Virus record (IMG/VR): IMGVR_UViG_3300007363_000020
Span: 1 to 34,314 of that record
Source of the DNA: a virus
Reading direction: 5' to 3' (one strand)
Length of the DNA: 34,314 nucleotides
Numbering within the stretch: position 1 is the first letter of the stretch; each line of letters starts with the position of its first letter. Below, in pieces: positions 10,225 through 33,243 of the stretch. Below the pieces are notes generated by a model, which saw only the letters and a list, made by a program, of their open reading frames with translations, did no database searches and had not been told where the DNA came from. The translations under genes were made by a program, and so were the position numbers.

Positions 10225-10370
10225 TTTGACACCTCCGCATTTTTCAAGGCTCTTTTTAAAACCATGCGCGTTTTTGGCATAGGCAGCTTGAATATTTCAA
10301 ACACCAAAAGAGCAAGATTGACGGCGTAGATCAGTTCTTTAATTTTGGCCTGAGATTTATCCTTTTTCAC
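10221..10370 (-). CDS. 49-aa basic protein with GTG start
   Basis: A GTG start overlapping the RlpA-like stop (GTGA), with GAGGTG five bases upstream, and an ATGA overlap with the next gene. It is basic at both ends, with a short hydrophobic stretch (I-Y-A-V-N-L-A-L-L-V-F) in the middle. Function is unknown. Confidence 0.5.
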   Translation of the reverse strand: MKKDKSQAKIKELIYAVNLALLVFEIFKLPMPKTRMVLKRALKNAEVSK

Positions 10371-10882
10371 TTGATCACCTCAACGCGCACAGGAAACTCT
10401 CCCCATGTCGCGCCACGCTTACCGCCAAGAGCGTCAAAGGCCGCAGGCGTGAGGTCGATGATGACCCCGCGCCTTGCGGGTTTCTTCCCCGGTCCGTAGT
10501 CGTTATGCTTGACCACAATAGACTTCTTCGTTTTCAGATTTGTCACTTTGTAATTGGAGCCGAATTTCCTTGATCTCAAAGCTGCCGTAAAACACTTCTC
10601 GCAGAGCCTTTCCCCCGATGCAGTTATCCCGGTGTTCCCCTCCGCTTTCGTCGATTGGACGCTGTACCAGGTAGCTATTCCTGTTTCCGCATGAGCGCGA
10701 GGCGAGAAAAGAGACTGGATCAGCGTGAGTGCTGACAATATGAGCAACGTATGAGCAACTAACCAAAATGCGTTTCTTTTCTTTTGCAAGTTCTGGCGTT
10801 TCTGGAAGGCATGAAAGGCTTGCCCATAAATGACCTTTTCTAATTGCTTCGTCGATTTGTTGGTAAGATCGTTCGTCCACAT
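10367..10882 (-). CDS. RlpA-like double-psi beta-barrel protein, membrane-anchored
   Basis: The 171-aa protein has a basic cytoplasmic N-terminus (residues 1-38), a hydrophobic span (39-60) and an A-H-A/E site at 65-66. A C-terminal domain (68-170) follows with the RlpA pattern: G-I-A-T-W-Y, T-A-S-G-E, Y-K-V-T-N-L, the H-N-D-Y-G-P-G loop and I-I-D-L. RlpA proteins are lytic transglycosylases that cut naked glycan strands at the septum. Here it could act as a signal-anchored lysin or remodel the wall during lysogeny. It is the first gene after the attP-side terminator and starts the early operon, away from the lysis-like genes. Start chosen for GGGGGTGG upstream. Confidence 0.75.
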   Translation of the reverse strand: MWTNDLTNKSTKQLEKVIYGQAFHAFQKRQNLQKKRNAFWLVAHTLLILSALTLIQSLFSPRAHAETGIATWYSVQSTKAEGNTGITASGERLCEKCFTAALRSRKFGSNYKVTNLKTKKSIVVKHNDYGPGKKPARRGVIIDLTPAAFDALGGKRGATWGEFPVRVEVIK

Positions 10883-11092: not shown

Positions 11093-11227
11093 CGGAGTAG
11101 AAGGAGCCACGTCAGCACGACGAAGTAGGGATAGGGTGCCCCGGAAGGTTATTCCACCAACGTGACCCCGAAAAGGGGTCTTAACTTCCTCGTTTAACTT
11201 CCCTATTTTATTCGTCGTTTTTTTCAT
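11057..11227 (-). CDS. possible 56-aa peptide overlapping attP
   Basis: A frame starting M-K-K-T-T-N-K and ending in F-L-Y-S within the attP region. It has no strong Shine-Dalgarno at useful distance (GGAG is 13 bases away). A hairpin (GACCCC/GGGGTC) lies within. It could be read from the zinc-ribbon promoter. Weak case. Confidence 0.25.
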   Translation of the reverse strand: MKKTTNKIGKLNEEVKTPFRGHVGGITFRGTLSLLRRADVAPSTPFGFADLSFLYS

Positions 11228-11247
11228 GGCTGTTATTTTACTCCGCA

Positions 11248-11382
11248 CTACTGTTTCGTCAATACTGATTTTTTCTTTAATTCTTTTTTCCAGTTGTACT
11301 GCTTACACGCCGGACAAGCTTTAGGATCTGCAATTCTAACGATCCACTTATGCCCGCATTTTTTACATTCAGCGTTTTTCAT
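11248..11382 (-). CDS. 44-aa zinc-ribbon microprotein
   Basis: Starts at the ATG after GGGGG; the longer frame would be translated from promoter sequence. It has the two knuckles C-K-K-C-G-H-K-W and A-C-P-A-C-K-Q-Y (residues 5-28), a classic zinc ribbon, then a basic tail (K-K-E-L-K-K-K). It lies between integrase and attP with its own near-consensus promoter, so it should be expressed in the prophage state. It could be a recombination directionality factor, a regulator or a toxin/antitoxin-type ribbon; I cannot choose between them. Confidence 0.7.
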   Translation of the reverse strand: MKNAECKKCGHKWIVRIADPKACPACKQYNWKKELKKKSVLTKQ

Positions 11383-11401
11383 GTTACCCCCGACAGAAAT
11401 A

Positions 11402-11430
11402 AGTATAATTATAATCATAATAAATGTCAA
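11402..11430 (-). promoter_or_regulatory. near-consensus sigma-70 promoter of the zinc-ribbon gene
   Basis: Minus strand: -35 TTGACA (complement of 11425-11430), 17-bp AT-rich spacer, -10 TATACT (complement of 11402-11407). Predicted start near 11395, about 13 bases before the start codon. The transcript would pass through attP to the terminator at 10955-10991. Confidence 0.8.
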
Positions 11431-11474
11431 CACTATTTTTCATATTTTTTTATCGCTCCAAAACCCTTGATGTA

Positions 11475-12470: not shown

Positions 12471-12959
12471 TTATAGTGTTTGAATTGTAAGGATTGCCGA
12501 AGCCACGGCGCCGATGCTTAGACCCGTCAGGCACTCGGCTATTTTCCAATAGAACCCAAATCTTTTAGAAGCAACCATACCAAACCCAAAAACAAGGCTG
12601 CAAACGCCACTAAGCTGAAGCAGTACCACAAGAGAGCCAAATCGCAGAGCCAGGGGAAACTGGCAGAATCCATACAGGAATCCCAAGAGGAATACATAAG
12701 GCCAATATAGCGTTTTAAGGCGTCTTGCAAAATCGTCACCGTATCCAGGGCCAAACCCGATCAGCCCAAACGTCAGCCCCGCGTAAAGCGCGAATTGCCA
12801 CCCAGAAAGGCCGTAGGAATAAGCGAAAGCGCAAAGGACAGCCGGAACCCCTAGCTTTCTCAAAAGTTTTAGCCCAGACCCGCCAAGCCCCCAAAGAGCC
12901 GCCGTTATGAACGGAAGGCACAAAATAACATCGTGATCGAAGAAAAAAAAATGTTTCAC
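12471..12959 (-). CDS. 162-aa multi-span membrane protein
   Basis: Very hydrophobic; four or five predicted spans with Gly/Phe/Leu-rich composition and an R-R-L-K loop near residue 79-82. It is the last gene of the late block and follows the smaller membrane protein with a few bases between. The size and span number exceed typical holins. It could be an exclusion or lysogenic-conversion protein; no family recognised. Confidence 0.6.
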   Translation of the reverse strand: MKHFFFFDHDVILCLPFITAALWGLGGSGLKLLRKLGVPAVLCAFAYSYGLSGWQFALYAGLTFGLIGFGPGYGDDFARRLKTLYWPYVFLLGFLYGFCQFPLALRFGSLVVLLQLSGVCSLVFGFGMVASKRFGFYWKIAECLTGLSIGAVASAILTIQTL

Positions 12960-12965
12960 GTTAAA

Positions 12966-13331
12966 CTAAATATGAAAGACAAAATGAAGGAAAAGGTACA
13001 CCGCAAACAAAAGCCAAGACAAGTAACACGCCCATGCTTTTAAAGGCGAATATTCCGGCTTTGTCTTGTCGTTCAAAGCCCAATTATCCCGGCTAATCGT
13101 GCGCTTGTTGCTGAATCTCCCAACCCCGTAAAGCAACCCGGCCACAATCCCGCCAAAAGCCAAGCTGATTGAAATATTGAGAATATTCCCCGGCTGAAGA
13201 ATCCCCAAAAGCTCGGCTCCCACAACGACCATGCAAATTGCCGTCCAAGCAAAGCACCAAGTCCACCGCTTAGCCCAAGCGTGAGCGCCCATTAAAATGA
13301 AATAAGGAATTAAGATTTTTACAGCGTCCAT
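12966..13331 (-). CDS. 121-aa membrane protein
   Basis: The start at 13331 is chosen: GGGGAGATA lies before the ATG, which overlaps the lipoprotein stop (TAATG). Three hydrophobic segments (about residues 5-15, 22-42 and 48-66) plus a C-terminal W/F/L-rich one. Function is unknown; it belongs to the string of small envelope proteins at the end of the late operon. Confidence 0.6.
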   Translation of the reverse strand: MDAVKILIPYFILMGAHAWAKRWTWCFAWTAICMVVVGAELLGILQPGNILNISISLAFGGIVAGLLYGVGRFSNKRTISRDNWALNDKTKPEYSPLKAWACYLSWLLFAVYLFLHFVFHI

Positions 13332-13558
13332 TATCTCCCCTTTTCTATTCGGTTCCACGCATCAAGAGACAGCCAGTAACCGTCCTTCTGCGTGATGACG
13401 TTGTAAGTTTTTCCTTCGTCCGTTGGGAGAGCCACGTTGTTTATAATTACGCCCTTTGGTATTCGAATCATATCCTCAACCCCGCCGACTACTGCCGGGC
13501 GAGAATGAGCGCAACCGCTAAGCGCCGCGCTTAGTATTAAGATCGTCCAAAAACGCAT
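13331..13558 (-). CDS. 75-aa outer-membrane-type lipoprotein (o-spanin candidate)
   Basis: The N-terminal signal of 15 residues ends in the lipobox L-S-G-C (C16), so a ~60-aa lipidated protein would be exported. The start was chosen at M-R-F-W because AAGGGGGAT precedes it. The gene begins inside the upstream 65-aa gene in another frame (41-bp overlap), the layout typical of Rz/Rz1 spanin pairs. However, the mature part is not Pro-rich and contains a beta-like GYWLSLDAW segment, so spanin function is only a positional guess. Confidence 0.65.
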   Translation of the reverse strand: MRFWTILILSAALSGCAHSRPAVVGGVEDMIRIPKGVIINNVALPTDEGKTYNVITQKDGYWLSLDAWNRIEKGR

Positions 13559-13715
13559 CGTAATCCCCCTTTTTGACATCAGTATCCATTCGCTTTTGAG
13601 CATCTTCTTTCTTTTGATTCTTCGCCCGCCGGCGGTCAACCCAATACGTTGACCACGGCGTCACGAAGTCCAGAATCTTTTTTAGTAACTCAATCGCCCC
13701 GGTTATCCAGTCCAT
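13518..13715 (-). CDS. 65-aa small protein overlapping the lipoprotein gene
   Basis: An amphipathic N-terminus (I-T-G-A-I-E-L-L-K-K-I-L-D-F-V) is followed by W-S-T-Y-W-V-D-R-R-R and a highly charged tail. No clear membrane span of normal length, so it is not a standard Rz i-spanin. It is placed directly after the holin-like gene with one base between, in the lysis-like cassette. Confidence 0.55.
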   Translation of the reverse strand: MDWITGAIELLKKILDFVTPWSTYWVDRRRAKNQKKEDAQKRMDTDVKKGDYDAFLDDLNTKRGA

Positions 13716-13716
13716 T

Positions 13717-13923
13717 TTATTTCTTCTGGAAAATCTTGTTGGCTACGAATTTTCCAAGCAATTCGGCTAGGTCGTTATCCCATTTCCACGGTGTATAGGG
13801 AGCGATCAAGCTGATGACGCCTTCAACGCCTTTCAAAAATGCTCCAAGAGCAACGATAGCCACAAGAATCTGCGCCCAAATTTCACCTGAATGTGCAATT
13901 ACAAACTTGACCAATTCGATCAT
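13717..13923 (-). CDS. 68-aa holin-like small membrane protein
   Basis: One hydrophobic segment (residues 15-42) followed by A-P-Y-T-P-W-K-W-D-N-D-L and an amphipathic basic tail. This layout (short N-term, span, T-P-x-x-D-D-like turn, helix) is common among small phage membrane proteins in lysis or tail-end positions, often called holin-like. It has a very strong AAGGAGGAATCAAA Shine-Dalgarno and an ATGA overlap upstream. Confidence 0.55.
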   Translation of the reverse strand: MIELVKFVIAHSGEIWAQILVAIVALGAFLKGVEGVISLIAPYTPWKWDNDLAELLGKFVANKIFQKK

Positions 13924-14066
13924 TTTGATTCCTCCTTTATTAACTCCAGTTCAAATTCGTTGATTTGTTCTAAAAGCTCGTTGCGTCCTATCGTTCCAGA
14001 AAACTGCTGGTGAGCAAATAGCTTCGCTTTTCTCAATAAAGATAAAGCCCGATCTAGCTTGTTCAT
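13920..14066 (-). CDS. 48-aa helical unknown protein
   Basis: A charged, fully helical small protein with ATGA overlaps at both ends (next to the TM/coiled-coil gene and the holin-like gene). A longer frame at the same place in another register is a shadow. Function unknown; position suggests lysis cassette. Confidence 0.55.
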   Translation of the reverse strand: MNKLDRALSLLRKAKLFAHQQFSGTIGRNELLEQINEFELELIKEESK

Positions 14067-14302
14067 TTAATCCCGATAATCGCCGCATGAGCCGATAAAG
14101 CCTCAGAGTGCGAATCAACCTTTTCCCACAGCTTCGATATTTGCTTGTCTCTTTTTTCAAACTCGGTGTCGATCTTAACCAAAGCTAAAAGAATATTATT
14201 AAGCGTTGCGCTTACTTTAGACGCCCACCAGACAGTCGCAAAGGCATGCGCTAAAATTGCAATTACTATTCCCGTCAGTGAAATTATGTTTCCGGCGCTC
14301 AT
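14063..14302 (-). CDS. 79-aa membrane-anchored coiled-coil protein
   Basis: An N-terminal span (about residues 5-28) and then a heptad-like charged helix (E-F-E-K-R-D-K-Q-I-S-K-L-W-E-K-V-D) to the end. This is the architecture of i-spanins (Rz) and of XhlA-type proteins. It starts with an ATG overlapping the stop of the 181-aa secreted protein. Either reading would fit the lysis-like cassette. Confidence 0.6.
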   Translation of the reverse strand: MSAGNIISLTGIVIAILAHAFATVWWASKVSATLNNILLALVKIDTEFEKRDKQISKLWEKVDSHSEALSAHAAIIGIK

Positions 14303-14844
14303 GTGTTTGGATCAGTCTCCGCATCAATCTGGGCTTTAGTGGCTCCCACAACCTGCGCCCAGGTGCGGTTTGGAAGCGTTGTTGTGTTCGGGATATTCCC
14401 TTTATTGATAACTTCATTCACCTTCGCCCTCGTTTCAATCAGCGAGGCCATCACAACCCTAAAAGCGTTCCGCATGGCTTTTGCGTCCGGCGTGTCATTA
14501 GTTAAATAGCTTTTAGCGTTAGTCTTTAAATTATCCGTTATCTGTTGTGCCCAAGCATCATCTACCGCAACCTTCTCGGCGGGACTCATTTCAACAGGAT
14601 AACCGTTCATTTTTTTTAAATATCTTTTATCTACGGTTTTTAGTAAATCCCTAACCATTTCGTATTTTTGTTGAGTGACGTTTTGCCCCAAATCGTAATA
14701 ATCGCAACCCGGAACAGCATTACCACGCAAAGAGAAATTAGATACATTGTTGTTTTGGTCATAACATACCGAAATCCCCGCATATAAAGGAGTAGAAATC
14801 GACAAACCAATTAAAATCGCTGTATTAAAAATTACTCGTTTCAT
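14299..14844 (-). CDS. 181-aa exported protein, tail-fibre-region
   Basis: The start at 14844 follows AGGAGA; it gives a clean Sec signal peptide (basic M-K-R, hydrophobic core, P-L-Y-A/G cleavage near residue 22). The mature part begins with a C-Y-D-Q-N-N-N beta segment and continues as a helical domain with M-S-P-A-E-K-V-A-V-D-D and a C-terminal T-K-A-Q-I-D-A-E. It closes the fibre-like gene group. Function is unknown; a fibre-associated or chaperone-like role is possible. Confidence 0.65.
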   Translation of the reverse strand: MKRVIFNTAILIGLSISTPLYAGISVCYDQNNNVSNFSLRGNAVPGCDYYDLGQNVTQQKYEMVRDLLKTVDKRYLKKMNGYPVEMSPAEKVAVDDAWAQQITDNLKTNAKSYLTNDTPDAKAMRNAFRVVMASLIETRAKVNEVINKGNIPNTTTLPNRTWAQVVGATKAQIDAETDPNT

Positions 14845-14872
14845 GCTAGGGGTTCTCCTATAAAATATTTGT

Positions 14873-15640
14873 TCATAATGGCAATCCACCACCAAACATT
14901 ACTGGTGGCCCAGAAGCTGATCCGTCAACATTACCGTTCACAGTTCCGCTTTTTGCGTTTGAACTTAAATCCCTGTGAGTATTACTTCCGTCCCACATTG
15001 GATCGAAAAAAACTAATCCGCCTGGAACAGCAGAGGGATTAAACATTAACTCAGCCATTGATACGGCTGTGATTTGTTCATTGAAAATTAGAAGATTGCT
15101 CATTTCTCCAGAGTAGTAAGTTGTTCCATTTGGTGAACACGCTCCTGTATGTTGAGTCCCTATCATTAAATCGCAAGTAGTACTTGTATTTATTGCTCTG
15201 GCTGTGCTTGACGCTGTTCCGTCATCTGTGTTATTTACATAATGAACTACATCAGTAATGTTTGTTCCTGTCAAAACAGAACAAACCCAATACCAAGTGC
15301 TTCCGTTGCTAACATCGGTAGTATTGGCAACTTCGTTTCCAGAGTTCACCTCCGTTCTCAATCTGTCTGTGGAGTCGTTTATTTTGAATCGGTACCCACT
15401 TCCGGCTGTTCCGGTGTCCGCATCTCCCCACGATGAAATAGTCAAAAATCCGGAAGAATCATTTGCTTTTATCCAAGAACATATGCTTCTTTTAGAAGTA
15501 CCAGAAACAGGAATGAAAGTTCCCCAAGTTAAATAATCTCCAGAACCATCAAAAGTAGAGCTTGCTCCAGTTTTAGCCTGAGCATTAAAAGAAAATAAAA
15601 ATAAGTATAAAAATATTATTACTAATATTTTTTTACGCAC
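14873..15640 (-). CDS. LamG/concanavalin-like secreted protein
   Basis: A 255-aa protein with a Sec signal peptide (M-R-K-K, long hydrophobic core, N-A-Q-A/K near 22). A LamG-like jelly roll follows: F-D-G-S-G-D-Y-L, I-C-S-W-I-K-A-N-D, W-Y-W-V-C-S-V, and the terminal G-E-M-S-N-L-L-I-F-N-E-Q-I-T typical of the family. LamG folds bind sugars or proteins, so it is a good candidate receptor-binding or decoration domain. The N-terminus overlaps the upstream fibre gene by 8 bp. The C-terminus ends F-G-G-G-L-P-L. Confidence 0.75.
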   Translation of the reverse strand: MRKKILVIIFLYLFLFSFNAQAKTGASSTFDGSGDYLTWGTFIPVSGTSKRSICSWIKANDSSGFLTISSWGDADTGTAGSGYRFKINDSTDRLRTEVNSGNEVANTTDVSNGSTWYWVCSVLTGTNITDVVHYVNNTDDGTASSTARAINTSTTCDLMIGTQHTGACSPNGTTYYSGEMSNLLIFNEQITAVSMAELMFNPSAVPGGLVFFDPMWDGSNTHRDLSSNAKSGTVNGNVDGSASGPPVMFGGGLPL

Positions 15641-17213
15641 GTGGTATGCTCACTCCAAAATTAACCGCTAAACTGTCCTGGCTTGCCGTATCTGAAGAAT
15701 TGCTCCCCTCTCGGCAAAAAACACCCATAACATCTTCGGATGCCGACCATCCGGCAGTTGTTGTGTCCGTTGTCCAGTCAGCTCTTGAGATTTTCCCAAT
15801 TCCAGATTGAACAGCCTGAGCCGATGCCGTAACAACAGTAGCCGCAACGTCAGTAGAAGCCCCAGGTGAAGCTCCGGCGTTGTGTCTGAATGACCAAACA
15901 ACATTACCCGTATCTAAAACTGAATTTTTAAAATCAACAAATATATCAACCACACCCCCAGATTGAACGTCCGGGGGAACATGGAAATTTACAGTCCTGC
16001 ACTCTGGAGTGGCAGAATCAAAAGCAACCGTTAATTCATCAAAGCTAACCGCGTTTGCTAATTTTGATATTGGCGGGATTGAATCTCCAACAGCCTCAAG
16101 CGGAAGCGTTGCTGAAGCAGGCCAGAAATATTCCTTTTTAGGTTTAGAGCTTCCTGAAGGAGTAGCCCAAGTCCCGTCACCTCGCCAATAAGTCGAAGAT
16201 GAAGCTGAAGTCCCGCTGTTTAAGTTTGTAACCGGCAAGTTTCCAGTTACGTCAGCAGAGGCTAAATTAACAGCCCTTGCTGCTGCGTCCTGATTTCCGG
16301 CGTTGATATGCACAAAGCCTGTGCCTGTTGGTACGGTACCCGCTCCCCCCGTCTGATCCGTCCCGCAGGAGAAAGCGTTTGTTGCGTTATCGTAAAGAAG
16401 CTTTGAGGTCGTGGCATTTGAACACGAAGGAAGCGCAGGAAAGTCAAATCCAGTTCCGAGATTATTCCCAACCGCTACAGCGTCACTTGAAATCGTCGTG
16501 GCACCCAACCCACCGTTACCGATGCCAACCGTTCCAAGCCCCAAACTGATAGCCGCGCCCTCACTTCCGGCGGCTCCACCAGAAAGCGGTGAGGTTGTCG
16601 CTACGCTTGCAACATAATTCCCGCTCGTTTCAGTCCCCAAAGCCACGCAGTCGGTACAAGCAACGCCAGTCGCATTTCCTGCTTCAGCATCTCCGGCGGC
16701 GTAGTTTCCAGTCGTGTCAGTTCCTAAAGCTACGGAATCCGGCTGAATCGTGGTCGTGGTACCGCCCGCTGATGTTGCAACGTCACCAGTTAGAGCCTTT
16801 GTTGACACCCCGCCATCCGCGCGCACCGTAAAGACGTTAGTATCAAAAGAGGCAATCCCTGGAGCCGTGGTCGTGGCAATATCCCCAGAAACCTTAATCT
16901 TGGTACCGGCCACAACCGAGGCCTTCAATCCCGTTGTAAAATCAATCGTATCCGCTGAAACAAGAAAAACACCATCTTCTGAAGTTCTGATCGTTCCTCC
17001 ACCGGCCACGGAGTCATCAGCGGCACAAGCCCACCTCGTGCCGTTGTACTTTAAAATCTGACCATTAGCGCAAGTCGTTACCTGCACATCATCAACCGAA
17101 GAAACCCCAACATAATCAAGCTTCCCAGTAAATGCGTTGTAGGTAGTCTTATACCCCGCAAAAGCCGGAGTCGAAGCGATCAAAAACAGAGCAAGAAGAA
17201 TGTATTTTTTCAT
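15633..17213 (-). CDS. long tail-fibre-like protein with signal peptide
   Basis: The 526-aa protein starts with a textbook signal peptide (M-K-K-Y-I-L-L-A-L..., P-A-F-A/G at 19). It then carries beta-rich, Thr/Gly/Ala-rich fibre repeats: V-A-L-G-T-x-T-x-G-N-Y occurs twice (about residues 160 and 190), along with G-G-L-G-A-T-T-I and S-G-T-S-A-S-S-S-T-Y-W-R-G-D-G-T-W, all common in phage tail fibres from metagenomes. The C-terminal 150 residues form a different, globular domain, probably the receptor tip. Its start overlaps the previous stop (TAATG). Confidence 0.75.
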   Translation of the reverse strand: MKKYILLALFLIASTPAFAGYKTTYNAFTGKLDYVGVSSVDDVQVTTCANGQILKYNGTRWACAADDSVAGGGTIRTSEDGVFLVSADTIDFTTGLKASVVAGTKIKVSGDIATTTAPGIASFDTNVFTVRADGGVSTKALTGDVATSAGGTTTTIQPDSVALGTDTTGNYAAGDAEAGNATGVACTDCVALGTETSGNYVASVATTSPLSGGAAGSEGAAISLGLGTVGIGNGGLGATTISSDAVAVGNNLGTGFDFPALPSCSNATTSKLLYDNATNAFSCGTDQTGGAGTVPTGTGFVHINAGNQDAAARAVNLASADVTGNLPVTNLNSGTSASSSTYWRGDGTWATPSGSSKPKKEYFWPASATLPLEAVGDSIPPISKLANAVSFDELTVAFDSATPECRTVNFHVPPDVQSGGVVDIFVDFKNSVLDTGNVVWSFRHNAGASPGASTDVAATVVTASAQAVQSGIGKISRADWTTDTTTAGWSASEDVMGVFCREGSNSSDTASQDSLAVNFGVSIPRA

Positions 17214-17458
17214 TATGAATAGACGTATCCCGTTCTATCGTTCCAGACGAAGTTAAAATCCGCAGAGCCTCCGGCGAATTGAATATCCGTAATGAATCCT
17301 CCGGCGTCATACGTCAGCTTCTTGATCTGCCACTTGGACGCAGTCTTAGCGGTGCCAGGCAGAGCAAGGCCGATATATTCATCATTCCCGTTCGCGTCTT
17401 TTGACTTCGCTGTGGTGTAAAGCAGTTCCCCGGCGATAAGGTTATTTTGCGATCCCAT
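17213..17458 (-). CDS. 81-aa small beta-rich tail protein
   Basis: Sequence of the type A-S-K-W-Q-I-K-K-L-T-Y-D-A-G-G...D-F-N-F-V-W-N-D-R-T-G-Y-V-Y, a pattern I know from small proteins next to fibre genes in metagenomic phages (tail/fibre-associated). Function is unproven. It is placed between the coiled-coil protein and the long fibre gene, with stop/start overlaps on both sides. Confidence 0.6.
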   Translation of the reverse strand: MGSQNNLIAGELLYTTAKSKDANGNDEYIGLALPGTAKTASKWQIKKLTYDAGGFITDIQFAGGSADFNFVWNDRTGYVYS

Positions 17459-17892
17459 TATTTGAGCCTTTCAATTCCCTCAAAAACGCTCTTAATAAAC
17501 GCCTCACGCTTCAGGATGTCGGCTTCTTTGGCCTTAATCGCTTCCTCGCGCTCAAAAAGAGCCTTCCGGGTATTCCCGCTTTCTTTACGGCTTTCCTCAA
17601 GTCTTGAAAGCTCGTATTGAATCTCCCCGCGTTGACGGGCGATTCCTTCCTCTGTCTTTCTGAGGCTGTTGATCAAATCAGAGGTCTTTTTCTGCTCGGC
17701 CAGAAGGTCGTTCTTCTTCTTTCCGATTTCTTCGTTGATCTTCTGCGCTTCAGATTTTAAAACGTCAACCTTCCTTTCCTCGCCCTTTCTCCAGTCCGTG
17801 ATTTTGGCCTTTTCTGACTCTAGGCGGTCGATTTCTCCCCGCAGATTCTTTAAATGCTCGCTCTTGATTGCCACTTCCGTTTCTGATGCCAT
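17458..17892 (-). CDS. 144-aa coiled-coil protein
   Basis: Almost wholly a charged coiled coil (heptads through residues 8-130), with a short non-helical end. This could be a tail-fibre chaperone, a fibre connector or a tail rod. It is the first late gene downstream of the plus-strand microprotein cassette, with AAAGGAGAAG as a good Shine-Dalgarno. Confidence 0.65.
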   Translation of the reverse strand: MASETEVAIKSEHLKNLRGEIDRLESEKAKITDWRKGEERKVDVLKSEAQKINEEIGKKKNDLLAEQKKTSDLINSLRKTEEGIARQRGEIQYELSRLEESRKESGNTRKALFEREEAIKAKEADILKREAFIKSVFEGIERLK

Positions 17893-17911: not shown

Positions 17912-17940
17912 TTTACACAAAATTTTAAAGCTGTTGTAAT
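17912..17940 (+). promoter_or_regulatory. plus-strand sigma-70-type promoter of the microprotein cassette
   Basis: -35 TTTACA at 17912-17917, 17-bp spacer, -10 TGTAAT at 17935-17940; each element matches the consensus at 5 of 6. The predicted start, near 17947, leaves a ~27-base leader with AGGGGG before the first ATG. A dyad ATCCCC...GGGGAT (17943-17948, 17961-17966) overlaps the start and the Shine-Dalgarno and could be an operator. Confidence 0.65.
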
Positions 17941-17973
17941 CTATCCCCGCAATCCGATAGGGGGATCAGTTAA

Positions 17974-18087
17974 ATGAAAACAAAAGACAAGCTTTTTTGG
18001 GAAACCATATGGTCTTTCTTTTTATTCGGAGTTTTATTGATCTTTATCCTTTTTTTGGGCATTTGGTTAATCATTGATTTGCTCTAA
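17974..18087 (+). CDS. 37-aa single-span membrane microprotein 1
   Basis: Plus strand: short basic N-terminus (M-K-T-K-D-K), then a hydrophobic segment from about residue 11 to 34 (F, L, I, W rich), ending I-D-L-L. Shine-Dalgarno AGGGGG, 9 bases from ATG. It is the first of three small membrane proteins facing opposite to every other gene. Type I toxin-like peptides, phage exclusion proteins and holin-like microproteins all look like this; sequence alone does not choose. Confidence 0.6.
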   Translation: MKTKDKLFWETIWSFFLFGVLLIFILFLGIWLIIDLL

Positions 18088-18088
18088 A

Positions 18089-18157
18089 ATGCTTTGCATT
18101 ATAGGAATCGTTTCTTTGATTTTTTTATTTGTATATCATTGGTTAAATTCTGATTAG
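18089..18157 (+). CDS. 22-aa hydrophobic microprotein 2
   Basis: Its ATG begins one base after the TAA of microprotein 1, so translation could re-initiate; it has no separate Shine-Dalgarno. A single hydrophobic stretch (I-I-G-I-V-S-L-I-F-L-F-V-Y) ends in a polar tail. Support is the coding layout of the cassette only. Confidence 0.4.
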   Translation: MLCIIGIVSLIFLFVYHWLNSD

Positions 18158-18169
18158 CCAGGAGAGAAC

Positions 18170-18238
18170 ATGGCTTGGGTATTGTTAATTGTTGTTTTTT
18201 TAATATGGTACATATCTTCATTTTGGTTCGATAATTAG
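18170..18238 (+). CDS. 22-aa hydrophobic microprotein 3
   Basis: AGGAGAG lies 4 bases before the ATG, a very good Shine-Dalgarno for so small a frame. The peptide is nearly all hydrophobic/aromatic (V-L-L-I-V-V-F-L-I-W-Y-I), with a short polar end. Its last codons overlap the end of the ejection-protein gene on the other strand by 4 bases. Confidence 0.55.
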   Translation: MAWVLLIVVFLIWYISSFWFDN

Positions 18239-19551
18239 CCTAAACGCCTAGAAACCTCACGAAGAGCAGGGCTCAAAACATTCCCAAATGTTTTAGCTCT
18301 CAAAATGTTCTTGGCTAATCCAGTTACGAAATATGGACTTCTCAATAAATCTATTGCCCTATCTCCAGCCAATACACCTGCCGCCGCAATCGGATTTCCT
18401 ACAGCCGCTAAACTCCCAGCCCCCATTCCTGCCAACTTTGGAAGGATTACACTCCTCTGAGAATTAGCCAGTGCTTGCATCAATGATTTTTTAGCTTGGA
18501 TAGCATTGGATTCTTTTTTCAAAATTGGCAATGTTTCCGGCTCAGCTTGTCCAATCTGTTTTTTAATTAGAGAAGCAATCTTTCTTCTTGCTTCCGTTGC
18601 ACCTGGGTTTTCGCTAATGTTTCTATTAAAAGCTGATTCTGGAGTTTCCGAATAAATTGCTTTTTTAATTTCTTGACCACCTGTCAAATCAAGCCCTAAC
18701 ATATCAGGCTCTTCAACTATTTTTTTTACCGGAACACCCAATGAATCTTGAGAATAAACAACTGATTGTTTCATTGGTAATCTTTTCAAAAATTGCTCTT
18801 TAATGTTACTTACCGAAGAAACATCCTCTGGTTTTAACCCAAGAGTTGCATTCTGTTTAGTCGAATCTAGAGAGTTAATTATATCTTGAGCATTTATTCT
18901 TTTTTTGCTTCCGCTGATGATTTTCCCAATCTGTTTCTCTGACTGTTTGATAATATCATCAGCTTTTCCAATCATTCCCTCTCGGCTTCCGTAGATTCCA
19001 GACTCAAGAGCATCTAAGCCCAATCTAGGATTTTTTTTAAGAGCCTGAACGCTTGGACGAATTACGCTGTTCATAATCCTATTGGCTACGGGTTCAGCCA
19101 AACGCCCCAATCCTCGCGCAGCCCCCTCAAACGCCGCAGTTCCAGCGGCTTCTCCTGCTAGGTCGTTTACAATACCTGGGGCTTTCGGTAGTCCGATAGC
19201 GTTTCCGAGCGTACCAAATAATTGACGTGGCTGGCTGTCTCTGGTTCCTCGGATTGCTTTAACTCCTTGACGCATGGCCTGTCCGGCTGTCGCACCCGCA
19301 ACGCTTCCACCAAATGAATTTACGCCAGGAATCGATGAGCCCACAACCTGACCGAGCATGGGGATAGTATCTTCCGGGTTTTGACCGCCCCCCGCCAAAA
19401 ACATTGGGCCTCCTCCTGCGTCAAGAATCTTGTCCTTGAATGTTCTCTTTCTCGCCGGAATGACTTCAGGCGTCACCGTTTTAACAGGCTCATCGTCTAA
19501 AAATCTTCCCTTGTACGTCTTTGAGGGTGCTTCGTCTAAGAATCTTCCCAT
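18235..19551 (-). CDS. 438-aa ejection/internal virion protein
   Basis: Largest of three ejection-type proteins in a row. The N-terminus repeats G-R-F-L-D-x-x-P twice (residues 2-22). It is followed by Gly/Ala-rich, membrane-active segments (G-S-V-A-G-A-T-A-G-Q-A, E-A-A-G-T-A-A-F-E-G-A-A-R-G-L) and a C-terminal Ala/Gly stretch (G-M-G-A-G-S-L-A-A-V-G-N-P-I-A-A-A-G-V-L). Proteins of this sort leave the virion with the DNA and form a channel in the cell envelope (P22 gp16/gp20/gp7 functional group). No enzyme motif is seen. Confidence 0.7.
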   Translation of the reverse strand: MGRFLDEAPSKTYKGRFLDDEPVKTVTPEVIPARKRTFKDKILDAGGGPMFLAGGGQNPEDTIPMLGQVVGSSIPGVNSFGGSVAGATAGQAMRQGVKAIRGTRDSQPRQLFGTLGNAIGLPKAPGIVNDLAGEAAGTAAFEGAARGLGRLAEPVANRIMNSVIRPSVQALKKNPRLGLDALESGIYGSREGMIGKADDIIKQSEKQIGKIISGSKKRINAQDIINSLDSTKQNATLGLKPEDVSSVSNIKEQFLKRLPMKQSVVYSQDSLGVPVKKIVEEPDMLGLDLTGGQEIKKAIYSETPESAFNRNISENPGATEARRKIASLIKKQIGQAEPETLPILKKESNAIQAKKSLMQALANSQRSVILPKLAGMGAGSLAAVGNPIAAAGVLAGDRAIDLLRSPYFVTGLAKNILRAKTFGNVLSPALREVSRRLG

Positions 19552-20372
19552 TAGATTTGATACCTCCGACCTTGAACCGTTACAACGCTTCCAGAAGGAA
19601 GACCAGAAGCGTCCGCTTCCTCTGGTGAGTTAAAAGATTGCCCCACCCGATCCGATACTTGGCCGCTTACTCCTTGATTCGATGGAACGGCAGACCCGCC
19701 ATTCAAAACTTTTCGATGCACGTTTTCAAGATCATCCAAGTATTTCATCGCCTGATCAGGACTAAGCTTTCTGTTTAAAACAGTAGAGGCGCTTTGCAAA
19801 AGGGCTAGTTCTTTTTCGCTCAACGCTCCGAATCCAGTTGATCCTGTTCTGCTAGCCTGTTTCAATTTTGTCATGGTGTCCAAAACGGCCTGAGAGGTAA
19901 GCTTTTTTATATTAGCTTCCCAATTTGACCGCCTGTCATATTCTCCAGGTAAAAGAGTTTTCGGGTCCCATGTAGAAGAAATGTCTCCAAAACGTCCAAA
20001 ATAATCCTTCCCCTTTTTCACTTCTCCGATCGTCTTGATAATGTCCTCAGCCGATGATCTTAAATTTTCATCCTGATTTTCTTTTACCTGTTGCGCTTGT
20101 GCTTGCTTGCCTCTCATTTCATCAAGCTTTGCTTGCTGAAGTTCATTCAGTGGCTTTGGCTGTCCCGCGGGAGATAAAGTCAAATCCTTAACAAGCCTCC
20201 CGCTCGCCTGGTCTCTGACATAACCCGCCGGAGCCGGATCGCTTAAAGACTTCATCTTTTGAAGTTCCATCAGAGTTTTCATCTGACTCAGTGACCTGTT
20301 AGTATTGGCGTTTCTTACAGCCGTGTAATTCTTAACGCCTTCAACAATTCCCTCTCCCAATGTTCTAGCCAT
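19551..20372 (-). CDS. 273-aa ejection/internal virion protein
   Basis: A mostly helical protein: an N-terminal amphipathic start, a long coiled region (residues 60-120), then T-K-L-K-Q-A-S-R-T-G-S-T-G-F-G-A-L-S-E-K-E-L-A-L-L, a pattern frequent in P22-like ejection-side proteins, and a C-terminal F-N-S-P-E-E-A-D-A-S-G-L-P-S-G-S-V-V. It lies between the two other ejection proteins, which supports the role. It overlaps the next gene by 1 bp. Confidence 0.65.
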   Translation of the reverse strand: MARTLGEGIVEGVKNYTAVRNANTNRSLSQMKTLMELQKMKSLSDPAPAGYVRDQASGRLVKDLTLSPAGQPKPLNELQQAKLDEMRGKQAQAQQVKENQDENLRSSAEDIIKTIGEVKKGKDYFGRFGDISSTWDPKTLLPGEYDRRSNWEANIKKLTSQAVLDTMTKLKQASRTGSTGFGALSEKELALLQSASTVLNRKLSPDQAMKYLDDLENVHRKVLNGGSAVPSNQGVSGQVSDRVGQSFNSPEEADASGLPSGSVVTVQGRRYQI

Positions 20373-21229: not shown

Positions 21230-21451
21230 TTATGAAAAAATAGATTTCAAAACAACGCCATCAATCTTTGTGTACTGGTAAACAACCCCGCCAATCTTCG
21301 CCCAGACAATCCCGCCCTCTGGTATTTCTGAATCCGTTGGCACGCTATCCCAAAGCTTCGTATAACCTTTGATGTTCTCAACGTGAAGGCCATGCTGTAA
21401 TGCCTCAAGATTCTTGTCCTGCGGGTTTTGGTTATTCCACATTTCCGTCAC
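21230..21451 (-). CDS. 73-aa small tail-region protein
   Basis: An N-terminal polar part (W-N-N-Q-N-P-Q-D-K) and a beta-rich C-terminal half (G-I-V-W-A-K-I-G-G-V-V-Y-Q-Y-T-K). It overlaps the secreted 116-aa gene by 20 bp. Probably a small tail or fibre accessory; no family recognised. Confidence 0.55.
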   Translation of the reverse strand: MTEMWNNQNPQDKNLEALQHGLHVENIKGYTKLWDSVPTDSEIPEGGIVWAKIGGVVYQYTKIDGVVLKSIFS

Positions 21452-21782
21452 TCACAATTTCCGTCAAAGCTTGGATGTCATCGTTTGAAAGGCTTAGTTT
21501 TGCCTTCAAAGCCTGTTTTCTTGATTTTCTGGCAACCTTCTCAGCCTGTTTCGCAGCCTTAAACTCCTGAACGGCCTGCTGAATGTCATCATCCGTTGGC
21601 AAGGGATCGCTTGTTCTCCATCCGCAAATTGTCATTTTTGGATTTTTAGAGTTTGGATTGTCCTGGCAAGTGTCAGCCACTGGTCCGTACTTCCAATCCA
21701 AAACCTCAGCAAGTGACGGCTCCTTTGCAAAGGCAACCCCGGAAATAATCAAAAATGGAATTACAAATAAAATCTTTTTCAT
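21432..21782 (-). CDS. 116-aa exported protein
   Basis: A clean signal peptide (M-K-K-I-L-F-V-I-P-F..., V-A-F-A/K at 19) precedes a small domain with two cysteines (D-T-C-Q-D, T-I-C-G-W), which could form a disulfide in the periplasm. A charged helical tail ends A-L-K-A-K-L-S-L-S-N-D-D-I-Q-A-L. The tail resembles the C-terminal helix seen in fibre accessory proteins. Its role is unknown. Confidence 0.65.
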   Translation of the reverse strand: MKKILFVIPFLIISGVAFAKEPSLAEVLDWKYGPVADTCQDNPNSKNPKMTICGWRTSDPLPTDDDIQQAVQEFKAAKQAEKVARKSRKQALKAKLSLSNDDIQALTEIVSDGNVE

Positions 21783-23275
21783 GACTCATACTCCTCAAGG
21801 TCAAAACTGCTAATGAGATACCCGCCATCGACTCTCGAGCCGTTTATCCCGTTTACTGTGGTCGTGGCCGAAGCCCCGCCGATGCGTAACTGATAAGCTT
21901 GCTCTGAAGTAGAAAGCGCAGGAACATCGCATCTGATGGTAATAGGAACAGGATATTGAGTTGTAGCCGTGTACACGGTAAACCCGGTGCAAACCGCATC
22001 CGGCTGAGAATCCTTGAAAACTGCGATTGTCTCCGAGATGCTTCCCGTGGTGTTGGATGCGTAGATATTCGCATTGATCCTGATCCGGTTAGCGCTTGAG
22101 GTAGGCGTAATGAAAAGCCTAGCCCATGATGAGCCTTCCGTAATCTGCGGAGGCGTGTCATCGTTGGGAATCGTGGCCGATGTTGTCCAAACAGCCCCGC
22201 TTTGATAACGCTTTCTTTGCCTAACCGCTCCCTGATAGCTGACCGAAGTCGTATCAAAAGAGGCATTAAAAAGCCCCGTTGTATCGGTCGAAACCTCGCC
22301 AATTCTTCTTGAGTTTGTCGTGCCTGACGGTGCGGTCGATGACGTGGATAAAATCCCTGTTATTTGATTTGTCGCGTCCTGATCGCCAACGGCGTAGATA
22401 TAATAGTTTTTATTGGCAATCAACGTACCCGAATCAATGCCTGATCGGCTGCTCGCGGGATCGGCTATGATTGACGAATCAATAGAAAGCACGCTTGAAA
22501 GCGTTCGGTATTGGCCGTTGATGTAAGCCGAGCCAACGCCGATATTTACCTTTGTCGTGCTATTGCTTGTGATCGCCAGGCCGTTTTCCCAACCCCCGGC
22601 TCCGTTTGTGAAAATATCACCCAAAGAAGCTTCTCCCTGAGCGTCACGGATTCCTGAGAACGGTCCATCGGTGCAGGTCGTGGTCCGTAAATCCGTAACC
22701 GTAGAAATTTGAGCCGAATCCGTTGAAACCCGAGCCAATCGGATGGCGTCCGCTGTGACGGATGGCGCTGAACTCCCAATCGCCTGTTCTAGGTAATTAA
22801 AGTTTCCATTCTTGTCCAGGTCAATCCACGTCCATTTTGAAGCCGTGAAAGTGTGCGCCGTAGACGATGCCTTCTTGATTCGGTATCCCGCCGGGTAAGC
22901 CGTTCCAGAAGGTATGCTACCGATCAAGGTGCCGGAAGTGGTCGAAGGCAGAAGCCCGGTGTATACGAACTCACAAGCCGCTCCCTCGTATGTTCTGATG
23001 CGAGGGTTTGCATCGTCGGCCATGTTTTCTTCAGCAATCGTATCAGCTTGAATCTGTCCGCTTGATTGATTGGTGCCGGTAGATGCCCCGCTGATGTTGT
23101 TAATCCCGTCAACCATCGCCTGGCGGTCTCTGTTGAGGTGTCCAACAATGTCGGCCTCTCCCTCGACGTAGTTTGACTCCAGACTGACAATAGCTGACCA
23201 CGCTTGACTACTGGTGACTATCAATGACAAGATAAAACAAATAGAAAACAATGCTTTTTTAGTTAAGCGATACAC
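21779..23275 (-). CDS. 498-aa exported tail-fibre/adhesin-like protein
   Basis: The start is GTG with GGAGCGC upstream. A signal peptide (residues 1-26, S-Q-A-W-S-A/I) is followed by beta-rich sequence with N-L-E-S-N-Y-V-E-G-E-A, I-R-T-Y-E-G, many T-S-T-T stretches and an E-E-Y-E-S end, resembling phage fibre or stalk proteins. It follows the gp10-like gene with a 17-bp overlap. The N-terminal region would attach to the tail, the rest would be a fibre. Assignment by composition and context. Confidence 0.65.
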   Translation of the reverse strand: MYRLTKKALFSICFILSLIVTSSQAWSAIVSLESNYVEGEADIVGHLNRDRQAMVDGINNISGASTGTNQSSGQIQADTIAEENMADDANPRIRTYEGAACEFVYTGLLPSTTSGTLIGSIPSGTAYPAGYRIKKASSTAHTFTASKWTWIDLDKNGNFNYLEQAIGSSAPSVTADAIRLARVSTDSAQISTVTDLRTTTCTDGPFSGIRDAQGEASLGDIFTNGAGGWENGLAITSNSTTKVNIGVGSAYINGQYRTLSSVLSIDSSIIADPASSRSGIDSGTLIANKNYYIYAVGDQDATNQITGILSTSSTAPSGTTNSRRIGEVSTDTTGLFNASFDTTSVSYQGAVRQRKRYQSGAVWTTSATIPNDDTPPQITEGSSWARLFITPTSSANRIRINANIYASNTTGSISETIAVFKDSQPDAVCTGFTVYTATTQYPVPITIRCDVPALSTSEQAYQLRIGGASATTTVNGINGSRVDGGYLISSFDLEEYES

Positions 23276-24823: not shown

Positions 24824-25369
24824 TTAACAACTCGCATTGGTTAGGATTCCGCTAGAAAAAGTAAAAGAACATGTGCCGGTCGTGTAAGTGCTTGTCTTTG
24901 GGATTGTTCCTGCCACGTTGACGCTTGTGATCGTAAGCTTTGAGACAGTGGCATCATTCGCTGACACGGTTCCTACGATCTTGACCTGGCTATCCTGGCG
25001 CCACGGCACGCCAATCGTGTAAACATTGTCATTCGATACTCCCGCCAATACCTGATTGCCTCTTGAATCCGTCCAGGCCGCAAACTGATTTCGGTTAAGC
25101 CTGATCACGTCCTGAGAACTGGCAACATTTCTAAGGCTGAATAGGCCGCCGGAATCAAAAGACGCGTAATTCGTGACACCGCCAAGATCGGTCTCACCAA
25201 GCAAACGGGAGTAAAGGTCAGAGCGCAAAACCTGAGTCGCTTCAATCGAGGTCAAAACTACCGTAGAATTGGCAGAGACTACGCCCGTTCCACCCTCAGA
25301 GCGCCAAGCAAAGGCGCTTTTAGCGCAGAGCAGTAAAAGAATAATCCAGAGAATCGACGCTTTTTTCAT
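24824..25369 (-). CDS. 181-aa exported protein, tail region
   Basis: Start at the Met giving M-K-K-A-S-I-L-W-I-I-L-L (GAGGC upstream); an alternative ATG four codons earlier is possible. Signal peptide with S-A-F-A/W at about 21. The mature part is Ser/Thr/Asn-rich and beta-like, and ends T-G-T-C-S-F-T-F-S-S-G-I-L-T-N-A-S-C, similar to C-termini of fibre proteins. It overlaps the O-antigen ligase-like gene by 50 bp, so it is made with it. Confidence 0.65.
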   Translation of the reverse strand: MKKASILWIILLLLCAKSAFAWRSEGGTGVVSANSTVVLTSIEATQVLRSDLYSRLLGETDLGGVTNYASFDSGGLFSLRNVASSQDVIRLNRNQFAAWTDSRGNQVLAGVSNDNVYTIGVPWRQDSQVKIVGTVSANDATVSKLTITSVNVAGTIPKTSTYTTGTCSFTFSSGILTNASC

Positions 25370-26486
25370 CAAATGCCTCATTGTTTTTATAAATGACTTC
25401 TTTCGTTGATCTGTGCGCTTGAGCCAGTGCTAAAATGTAAATCCCAATACCTGCAAACCTTCCAACGTGAAACGGAAAATGAAAAAATGAGCAGATGAAT
25501 AAAGACAAAAGGCAGGCTGAAATGATATGCCCGTTGTAATTAAGCTTAAAATTGCGAAACATATCCTTGAAATAAGCATAGAGAAACAAAGCCCCCGCGA
25601 TTCCCTGCTCAAATAAAAACTGAATGAACTCGTTATGCGCCCAAGCCCACTGCTGAGGCTGTCCGTTTTCTTGAATAGTCACGAATTTCGTCACGTTCCA
25701 ATGCCCTAGACCATAGCCAAAATAGGGATGCGTCTTTAGAACGGCGATGCCCGCCCACCAGATTTTTAAACGCTTATCAAATTCCCCCGTTGGCAGGTCT
25801 TTGAAAATGATGTAATAAGCGCAGGCGCCGATCACTGTAGGCATCAGCACCCAGAAAGCCTTGCGGTGACGAAAAAAAGCCAGATAAAGAAATGAGATTG
25901 CCCCGGCGCCAATCGTGGTAGAAGCTTTTGAGCAGATAAACAAAGGCACCAAAGCCAGGCAATACCAAGGGCTTAGAGCGTAAATAAAAGGCAGTACAAT
26001 CGCCGCCAAAAGGCCGAGAGCGAAGCGAATACCCATGAATCCAACAATATCAACCTGGGGCATTTTGTCGTAATTCATGCTCGAAAATATGGGATCAATG
26101 TTCACGAACTGCAAAGCCATAAGACCAATGTTGAAAGCCACAAGGCACAGAAACAATTTCCCAATTTTCTTGAATCCAAAGTCAAGGCGCTCGGCGATAA
26201 TCTTGATGGTCAAAATACCGAGAAATAAATTCATCAGCGTCAATCTTCCAGGCACGTCAAACGACACAAAAAACGTATGCAGAACGCAATAAGCCAAAAG
26301 CGCGGCCATAAAAGCGTTTGATATTTTTCGCTTTGCCGGAACTACCCAGGAAATTGCAAGCCAGATGTAGGCCGAGTATTGAATAAAAGCCTCCTGGGGC
26401 ATATAGGAACTCATCCCAGGCCAATAGAACACGGTAGAGGCCACAAGATAGAATCTTAGAAAAACATCAAAGATCATGTCGGTCAT
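25320..26486 (-). CDS. O-antigen ligase/polymerase-like membrane protein (WaaL/Wzy family)
   Basis: The 388-aa protein has about ten hydrophobic segments and the Wzy_C/WaaL signature: R-L-K-I-W-W-A-G-I-A-V-L-K-T-H-P-Y-F-G-Y-G (residues 239-259), then A-H-N-E-F-I-Q-F-L-F-E-Q-G-I-A-G (283-298), a conserved periplasmic loop with H284. Such proteins join or polymerise lipid-linked polysaccharide at the outer face of the inner membrane. In a phage this would alter the O-antigen (serotype conversion) and may block superinfection. Unusually, it sits inside the head-tail gene string with ATGA overlaps. Confidence 0.85.
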   Translation of the reverse strand: MTDMIFDVFLRFYLVASTVFYWPGMSSYMPQEAFIQYSAYIWLAISWVVPAKRKISNAFMAALLAYCVLHTFFVSFDVPGRLTLMNLFLGILTIKIIAERLDFGFKKIGKLFLCLVAFNIGLMALQFVNIDPIFSSMNYDKMPQVDIVGFMGIRFALGLLAAIVLPFIYALSPWYCLALVPLFICSKASTTIGAGAISFLYLAFFRHRKAFWVLMPTVIGACAYYIIFKDLPTGEFDKRLKIWWAGIAVLKTHPYFGYGLGHWNVTKFVTIQENGQPQQWAWAHNEFIQFLFEQGIAGALFLYAYFKDMFRNFKLNYNGHIISACLLSLFICSFFHFPFHVGRFAGIGIYILALAQAHRSTKEVIYKNNEAFDEKSVDSLDYSFTALR

Positions 26487-31135: not shown

Positions 31136-33243
31136 TACTGCTGTGCCGAGGCCATAAGCCCCGCCCCCTGATGAATTGGTGACTTTGCCGGGCTTTTCAT
31201 TGGCTTGCCCGACTTCTTAGCTTCAACTCTCGCCTGTAATTCTTCGAGCATCCCGATCAGCGGGCTTCCTTGCCCTGAGATTCCAGGCGCCGTCTGCTCA
31301 AATGTTGCCATCAGCTTGTCATCGCTGAAAATTTGAGCCAAACGATTAAGGGATTTCTCATCATCTCCTAGTTCATTTGGGTTCATCGGCACGCCGTGGA
31401 CCGCGTAATCAGTTACCTGCTGATCGATCTCGCGGATCGGCACCGGGATAGTCAAGTCTGAGGTGTTCCGCATGTCCAAGTTCTGAGTGTAAAGCTGTAA
31501 AACCTTCTGGCCGTTCAGCATCTGCCCGGTCTGCTTCAAAATCGGAGGAAGGATAGTTGCCATATCCCCGACAATCTCACGCACCTGCTGACGCTTTAAA
31601 GCCTTATTCGGAGGAAGAAAGCTTGTCACGTCAATGTCAGCCTTAAACTTCCCCTGTAGGCTGTCAGCCGTCACACCTGGACGAGAAATCTTCTCCCCAG
31701 TGAACTTGTCAACAATCGTCAAGTCTTTTGGCTTCTGCATGTTCCTCTGCCGAAGCTTCGCCCAATCGTAGAAAATGTCCTTCAGGAAGTCTTTGAATTT
31801 ATCAATGTAATCCCCATTTTCTGTTGAGTCTGTCTGCTGAATGTTCTCGGATTCCGTGGCCGTTTTCTTTTGGTTTATGATTGACGGTTGAGAAAAGGAC
31901 GGTCTCCGAGAAAGGTTGTCAAATATCTGCCGCGCTAATGCTAGCATCGCCTCGTGATCCTGGCTCAACGGCTGATCTACTATCTGATTGACTACGGTTC
32001 TGACATCGATTCCGGGGGGCAAGTTCTCAACTCCCAAAACCTCAAGATCGCTGTTTCTGATCCACTTCTCAATCTCAGCCTTCTCCATCCCGCTTTGACC
32101 TGTTTTCACAAGGTAGCGAGTGGACGCCTTTTTAATGTGCCGGTTAAGCTTTGAGAAGATATTGTCAATAATCTGTAAGATTGGCTCAAGAATCCACGCC
32201 TCGGACGGAGGTACAAAAGAATCCGCCGCATCGTTAAGCTGTAGAATATGTATCGGGAATCCGCGGTCATCGTAGCCGTGGCCTTTATCCCAATCAGAAT
32301 AGTCCAGGTATTTGCCTTCCAACGCCGGATCATCAGACAGCACCAGGCGCTTTATCGGAGTGTCATCGGACCCGCGAATAAACCCTACATAGACTTTCGC
32401 ATGGAGCATGTCATCTCTGAGTTCATTCTTTTCTTTCTCATTGTCTCTAAGTTCAGCATCGATAAGGCTTTTATAGCTTGCCCCTTTGATCTGCTTCACC
32501 AGCTCCTGGTCAAGCGTGGGGTCATTCTTCAGAGTCTCAAGGGATACAATGTCACAGTAGCCTAGATACGGCGCCTGTTTATGATTCCAAAACGTAATGT
32601 ACGTTGGCCGAATGATATTCTCCGGCCTGATCTTTGTGATCATCACTTGATCCGTAATGACCTGCGGGATCATCATCGGCTGACCGCTGTCATCCATCAC
32701 CGGCTGACCGTTCTCATCGGTGAGAGGTTCCCCTGTAGGCTTCTGCTGATAGTCATAATCGATATAGATGGCCGCCATTGACGAAAGATTCTCATCGACA
32801 AGCGATGACCTGAAAATGTTCTTTAACTCGCTCTCACGGTCACTTATGTCATCATTCACCACCTGCTGAAGGTTCTCAACCCCCGCCACTTCCTGCGGGT
32901 CCTTGTCGTTTCTGGCCGTAAGGTCAATCTCAGGATTGCGGAAGAATATCGAGGCGATGAATTCTTTCACGTCTTTGTACAGCAGATTGATGTCGTTATG
33001 ATTTACCCGCATCTTTGCAGACGATGAAAGCGAGTGGACGTTTGAATATCCGATCTCCGAATTATACCGGCGCTTCGCCTGGCGATATTTCGGATAAATC
33101 TCCTTGCGATGATAGGACAGCACGAACTTAAACCGTGACAGCCACTTCCTAACCTCATCAGGGCTAAGATCGGGCTTTTTTAACGGCTGTTTATTTTCCT
33201 GATCGTCAATAGCCGAAAGATTGAACGTCTGCGCGTCATCCAT
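31135..33243 (-). CDS. portal protein (podovirus/P22-type length)
   Basis: The 702-aa protein after terL, in the standard place for a portal. Features are K-E-F-I-A-S-I-F-F-R-N-P-E-I-D-L (about residues 92-107), a long helical wing and stem region, R-P-E-N-I-I-R-P (about 211-218), and K-A-S-T-R-Y-L-V-K-T-G-Q. The length is close to that of P22-like portals (about 725 aa). It forms the dodecameric DNA gateway that docks TerL. Its ATG overlaps the terL stop. Confidence 0.85.
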   Translation of the reverse strand: MDDAQTFNLSAIDDQENKQPLKKPDLSPDEVRKWLSRFKFVLSYHRKEIYPKYRQAKRRYNSEIGYSNVHSLSSSAKMRVNHNDINLLYKDVKEFIASIFFRNPEIDLTARNDKDPQEVAGVENLQQVVNDDISDRESELKNIFRSSLVDENLSSMAAIYIDYDYQQKPTGEPLTDENGQPVMDDSGQPMMIPQVITDQVMITKIRPENIIRPTYITFWNHKQAPYLGYCDIVSLETLKNDPTLDQELVKQIKGASYKSLIDAELRDNEKEKNELRDDMLHAKVYVGFIRGSDDTPIKRLVLSDDPALEGKYLDYSDWDKGHGYDDRGFPIHILQLNDAADSFVPPSEAWILEPILQIIDNIFSKLNRHIKKASTRYLVKTGQSGMEKAEIEKWIRNSDLEVLGVENLPPGIDVRTVVNQIVDQPLSQDHEAMLALARQIFDNLSRRPSFSQPSIINQKKTATESENIQQTDSTENGDYIDKFKDFLKDIFYDWAKLRQRNMQKPKDLTIVDKFTGEKISRPGVTADSLQGKFKADIDVTSFLPPNKALKRQQVREIVGDMATILPPILKQTGQMLNGQKVLQLYTQNLDMRNTSDLTIPVPIREIDQQVTDYAVHGVPMNPNELGDDEKSLNRLAQIFSDDKLMATFEQTAPGISGQGSPLIGMLEELQARVEAKKSGKPMKSPAKSPIHQGAGLMASAQQ

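Follow-up and report, generated by a model that had tools for sequence, protein, structure and literature searches.

What does the gap behind the last ejection-type gene of this phage encode, on the strand that opposes its late operon? The window, that is, the whole stretch of 34,314 nt that was analysed (IMG/VR record IMGVR_UViG_3300007363_000020), had been described in a sequence-only reading as carrying there a cassette of three microproteins, in a setting where all other genes lie on the minus strand. The frame, Shine-Dalgarno (SD) and promoter coordinates of that reading all hold on re-checking of the letters (Table 1), and its statement on strand agrees with the ORF map of the window, which is a map of open frames rather than of gene calls. 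We arrive at a tentative best reading of the cassette as an accessory, self-promoted moron that would encode three single-span microproteins, with superinfection exclusion as their most likely role.

Three tandem hydrophobic frames in a late-gene gap

On the plus strand of the gap, a promoter-like site is followed by three tandem ATG frames that fill nearly all of the remaining space. Frame 2 starts one base past the stop of frame 1 (junction TAA-A-ATG), frame 3 starts 12 bases past the stop of frame 2, and the 3′ end of frame 3 lies 4 nt within the convergent gene; the inter-frame gaps of 1 and 12 nt represent operon-like packing. An alternative in-frame TTG for frame 2 is located at 18074. 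Each frame consists of one hydrophobic stretch, with best 19-residue Kyte-Doolittle means of 3.1, 2.4 and 2.2 for frames 1, 2 and 3, respectively. Elsewhere in the window, two more hydrophobic frames, of 32 and 29 aa and both without an SD, were identified at 11226-11470 (+), adjoining the integrase gene.

Table 1. Features of the cassette and its flanking genes (window coordinates)
Feature	Coordinates	Strand	Description
Gap			342 bp, between minus-strand late genes 17458-17892 and 18235-19551
Next late gene	17458-17892	-	144 aa, coiled-coil-like
Promoter-like site	17912-17940	+	TTTACA-17-TGTAAT; TTTACA 17912-17917, TGTAAT 17935-17940; 10/12 match
Inverted repeat	17941-17960	+	CTATC-N10-GATAG, at expected transcription start
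SD of frame 1	17959-17964	+	AGGGGG, 9 nt spacing
Frame 1	17974-18087	+	37 aa, MKTKDKLFWETIWSFFLFGVLLIFILFLGIWLIIDLL; single span, basic N-terminus
Frame 2	18089-18157	+	22 aa, MLCIIGIVSLIFLFVYHWLNSD; single span, no SD
Minus-strand TATAAT	18103-18098	-	perfect -10, weak -35 (9/12 site), reads into frame 1
SD of frame 3	18160-18166	+	AGGAGAG
Frame 3	18170-18238	+	22 aa, MAWVLLIVVFLIWYISSFWFDN; single span
Last ejection-type gene	18235-19551	-	438 aa, convergent with cassette
Ejection-type gene	19551-20372	-	273 aa, weak match to PHROG 2534

Chance controls

T makes up 44% of the plus strand of the gap, so that hydrophobic frames are expected there more often than usual, and T-rich spacer DNA could have yielded such open frames by chance. 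Because a T-rich strand favours hydrophobic frames, the shuffling in the first control preserved dinucleotides. Among 617,669 such shuffles of the region, 19% contained at least one transmembrane (TM) frame and 0.4% at least two; at least three non-overlapping TM frames appeared in 8 shuffles, at least two TM frames with an SD in 42, and three TM frames together with two ribosome sites in none. The second control covered both strands of the window and other loci (2.46 Mb strand-bases, mostly from other phages and partly richer in GC) and yielded 163 TM frames of 20-60 aa. Ten of these are preceded by a ribosome site, two of the ten being in the cassette, which is also the sole cluster of three TM frames within 350 nt.

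A chance origin would be consistent with the T content of the gap, with the lack of any homologue of the frames, with the missing SD of frame 2 and with thresholds for TM frames and promoters that were chosen after the frames had been seen. We nevertheless consider it very unlikely, given that no shuffle reproduced the cassette, that no second cluster occurs in 2.46 Mb strand-bases and that the promoter-like site is both unique and correctly placed. The three-microprotein cassette of the sequence-only reading is thus borne out, far beyond chance in both controls, and it is quite probably translated.

Promoter, leader and minus-strand signals

The promoter-like site includes an extended TG at 17932-17933, one base 5′ of the second hexamer, and is the only plus-strand site in the 34-kb window with at least 10/12 matches and an extended TG. 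Shuffles gave such a site in 0.025% of cases for the 81-nt leader and in 1% for the whole region. Because the thresholds were set post hoc and position 2 of the -10 hexamer is G, not the key A, we regard the site as a good candidate promoter rather than as a fact; a stricter promoter scan listed no site. The SD of the minus-strand gene 17458-17892 sits between that gene and the candidate promoter. A search for a plus-strand intrinsic terminator downstream of the cassette, as far as 18700, found none.

The inverted repeat at the expected transcription start might act as an operator or as a translation hairpin. It was rejected as a repeated phage operator, no second exact copy being present in the window. 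In the RNA, CCCC/GGGG arms can pair across the frame 1 ribosome site, and the fold of this leader hairpin is no stronger than that of shuffles (z -0.92). The minus-strand TATAAT, one of 12 on both strands of the window, could either start an antisense RNA or serve as an internal late promoter.

These signals bear on the main rival of the exclusion reading, namely, a type I toxin-like cassette, in which one or more of the peptides would depolarise or perforate the membrane and would be held in check both by an antisense RNA and by a hairpin that blocks the SD, in the service of prophage maintenance or abortive infection. Type I toxins of the IbsC, TisB and Hok/Fst classes are single-span peptides of about 19-50 aa. 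The cassette peptides are typical of them in size and in their single span, the CCCC/GGGG hairpin can cover the frame 1 ribosome site, and the minus-strand TATAAT could give rise to an RNA complementary to the whole of frame 1. However, the hairpin does not stand out from shuffles, the antisense promoter is weak and its hexamer is common in the window, and the antisense RNA is only putative; furthermore, three different spans in one operon would be an unusual layout for such toxins, and neither Rfam nor the protein families returned a match. We therefore consider a toxin role unlikely; this variant, which the sequence-only reading had also offered, is backed by nothing more specific than peptide size and one weak promoter-like site on the minus strand.

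Relatives of the phage and the equivalent gap

Searches for homologues of frames 1-3 in PHROGs, Pfam and NCBIfam returned only matches with E >= 0.1, and Rfam returned no match for the cassette region. Five window proteins and alignments, run against IMG/VR, detected no close relative of the phage, nor did searches of GTDB genomes, phage DNA and protein sequences and plasmids. The MCP relatives (25-29% identity) have only head genes in common with the window phage. Locus L091 contains the upstream tail genes but has no detected homologue of the ejection genes and no gap at the comparable place.

The syntenic relative is one IMG/VR contig, IMGVR_UViG_3300020045_006843, in which the late gene order is kept, with about 24-29% identity for the terminase, the tail genes and three ejection-region genes. 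Its 435-aa ejection gene, at the equivalent place, encodes a protein 26% identical to the 438-aa protein of the window, and the gene behind the ejection region is alike in place and length, with an identity of 19%, which is below proof of homology. Behind the 435-aa ejection gene there is a gap of 67 bp, from which the cassette and its DNA are absent, so that absence from relatives is read here from a single, distant phage.

The only copy of TGNTATAAT (an extended -10) in the record of the relative sits in this 67-bp gap, in antisense orientation (L090 9380-9440; record 17252-17341, minus), and occurs there in 0.5% of gap shuffles. It lies six bases before the ATG of MYILVALIALAFITSDQAS, a 19-aa hydrophobic frame. 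The relative is thus like the window phage in its late gene order, in the antisense extended -10 and in a hydrophobic frame within the gap, and unlike it in the smaller gap and in the single frame, which has no SD, would be leaderless and runs into the ejection gene. This comparison suggests that both phages have an antisense promoter slot in common, in which the small membrane frames differ, although it is one case and may be a coincidence.

An antisense promoter-like site in the equivalent gap of both phages could also point to regulation, whereby the plus-strand transcript, and not the peptides, would lower late expression in the lysogen by pairing or by collision with transcription of the ejection gene. 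The lack of a terminator behind the cassette and the lack of conservation of the peptides are consistent with such a regulator, which would leave three tandem spans with ribosome sites unexplained and which we consider quite improbable.

Genes flanking the cassette

The two ejection-type genes that precede the cassette in the late operon were compared with those of P22. The label of PHROG 2534, which is weakly matched by the 273-aa product, is “released from the phage upon host infection”; as a link from this gene to P22 gp20, the match was weakened, the matched profile segments being non-overlapping. Profile comparison of the 438-aa and 273-aa products with P22 gp16 and gp20 yielded no match, and the AlphaFold2 model of the 438-aa protein, with a pLDDT of 33, was set aside.

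Given that short single-span peptides here adjoin a long late operon, for which candidate lysis genes were identified by eye at 12471-14302, the peptides might instead tune lysis or the envelope late in infection, as partners of a holin or antiholin. However, the cassette is read in the direction opposite to late transcription, 4 kb separate it from the lysis region, and several membrane proteins are already encoded in the late operon, making this role quite unlikely.

The slot behind the ejection genes in P22-type phages

In P22, gene 16 is followed after 22 bp by sieA, which is on the other strand (convergent) and has its own promoter. SieA is an inner-membrane protein that blocks DNA injection (PMC2629481, PMC10883804). 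P22-like phages differ from one another in the stretch between genes 16 and 9, which has been named the ant moron, and the morphogenetic clusters are noted to contain no other morons (PMC2629481). Among seven further P22-type phages, six (Proteus Brookers, Vibrio 1.036.O, Emek, PVA1, D277 g1 and UPF_BP1) have an antisense gene in first place behind the gp16 homologue, the exception being APSE-3, in which the tailspike lies directly behind the gp16 homologue. The products of most of these antisense genes are exported proteins, lipoproteins or membrane proteins, as judged, partly by eye, from a signal, lipoprotein or membrane segment. The correspondence between the window slot and that of P22 is one of position and gene type rather than of proven descent.

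Like sieA, the cassette is accessory, lies directly behind the last ejection gene in convergent orientation, and has its own (predicted) promoter and predicted inner-membrane products. SieA, in contrast, is one protein of 162-164 aa with three predicted spans, whereas the cassette encodes three separate single-span peptides with no sequence similarity to it. The motif FxRYPxEAxxFNK of SieA types A-C (PMC10883804) is absent from the 22-37 aa cassette peptides, and the window gap, unlike the P22 slot, contains no mnt, arc or ant genes. Comparable layouts occur in two Vibrio phages: in D277 g1, the product of the antisense gene directly behind the gp16 homologue (VPHD277G1_0021) has 61 aa and an N-terminal span, and in 1.036.O the slot holds an operon of four small antisense genes. 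Both share with the cassette small antisense genes at this place, with a membrane span in one of them, although their proteins are larger and without sequence similarity to the cassette peptides.

A probable accessory moron and a possible exclusion function

The moron interpretation, which the sequence-only reading had drawn from the layout, gains support from the cassette's own predicted promoter and ribosome sites, from its absence from the sole syntenic relative and from its position in the counterpart of the best-documented moron slot of P22-type phages. Morons often, but not always, carry a terminator of their own, and none was found here; the definition of a moron asks only for usually independent expression, and a terminator is not a strict requirement (PMC2629481). 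The cassette is probably an accessory moron. A moron in a known moron slot is familiar; what would be new is that three microproteins take the place of one larger protein.

Exclusion is the best guess for its function because of the position and the membrane nature of the products, and exclusion at the injection step, by analogy with SieA, is a reasonable possibility that we hold at somewhat less than even chances. In this scheme, a moron would have entered in antisense orientation, immediately behind the last ejection-type gene. Transcription would start at about 17946 from the extended -10 promoter and proceed toward the late operon while that operon is silent, presumably in the lysogen. Frame 1 would be translated from its own ribosome site, frame 2 probably by coupled re-initiation at TAA-A-ATG, and frame 3 from its strong ribosome site. 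The three peptides would then insert in the inner membrane and might prevent the DNA-injection conduit of similar superinfecting phages from being completed, as SieA of P22 does from the matching slot. The transcription start is deduced from sequence, the later steps of the mechanism are drawn by analogy, and we infer translation, prophage expression, membrane insertion and exclusion alike. A split exclusion factor, in which the three microproteins would assemble in the inner membrane into one unit that does the work of the three-span SieA in the SieA slot, is highly improbable; the slot of the relative, by comparison, has a single leaderless span of 19 aa.

Several findings count against this scheme. 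A length of 22 residues is short for a stable span plus any soluble part; no frame has a homologue or resembles SieA, and the ejection genes do not match gp16 or gp20 of P22; the candidate -10 lacks the key A, and the cassette is not followed by a detectable plus-strand terminator. An integrase gene in the window counts in favour of the scheme, but no repressor gene was identified there. The terminase frame (33243-34314, minus) runs off the contig end just upstream of a Walker B-like motif; the window is therefore a fragment that may lack repressor genes.

Gene finders drop frames as short as these, and apparently empty phage slots may hold working cassettes. If the peptides do exclude phages, 22-37 residues would suffice for exclusion at the membrane, and more such factors could be sought in the antisense slot that follows the ejection genes across unrelated short-tailed phages.

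Other features of the window

Within the late (virion) operon, we identified a gene for a Wzy_C-type O-antigen ligase/polymerase-like membrane protein (25320-26486, minus), of which a 29% identical copy is present at the matching place in IMGVR_UViG_3300020045_006843 (L088 9946-11163); it may be a receptor-altering gene that the late operon has retained. An RlpA/DPBB-type lytic transglycosylase with an N-terminal membrane segment, a possible endolysin, is encoded at 10367-10882 (minus), adjoining the replication/integrase region.

Several virion or tail-type genes at 14299-17213 and 21432-23275 (minus), as well as in the relative (L088/L089), encode proteins that by eye have the look of an N-terminal cleavable signal peptide (e.g., MKKYILLALFLIASTPAFAG). 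Signal peptides are unusual for proteins that assemble in the cytoplasm. The structural protein encoded at 21779-23275 (minus) gave sub-threshold matches to the second domain of Mtd and the C-terminal domain of Pgp3, and contains a TAHTFTASK motif common to tail proteins of other phages.
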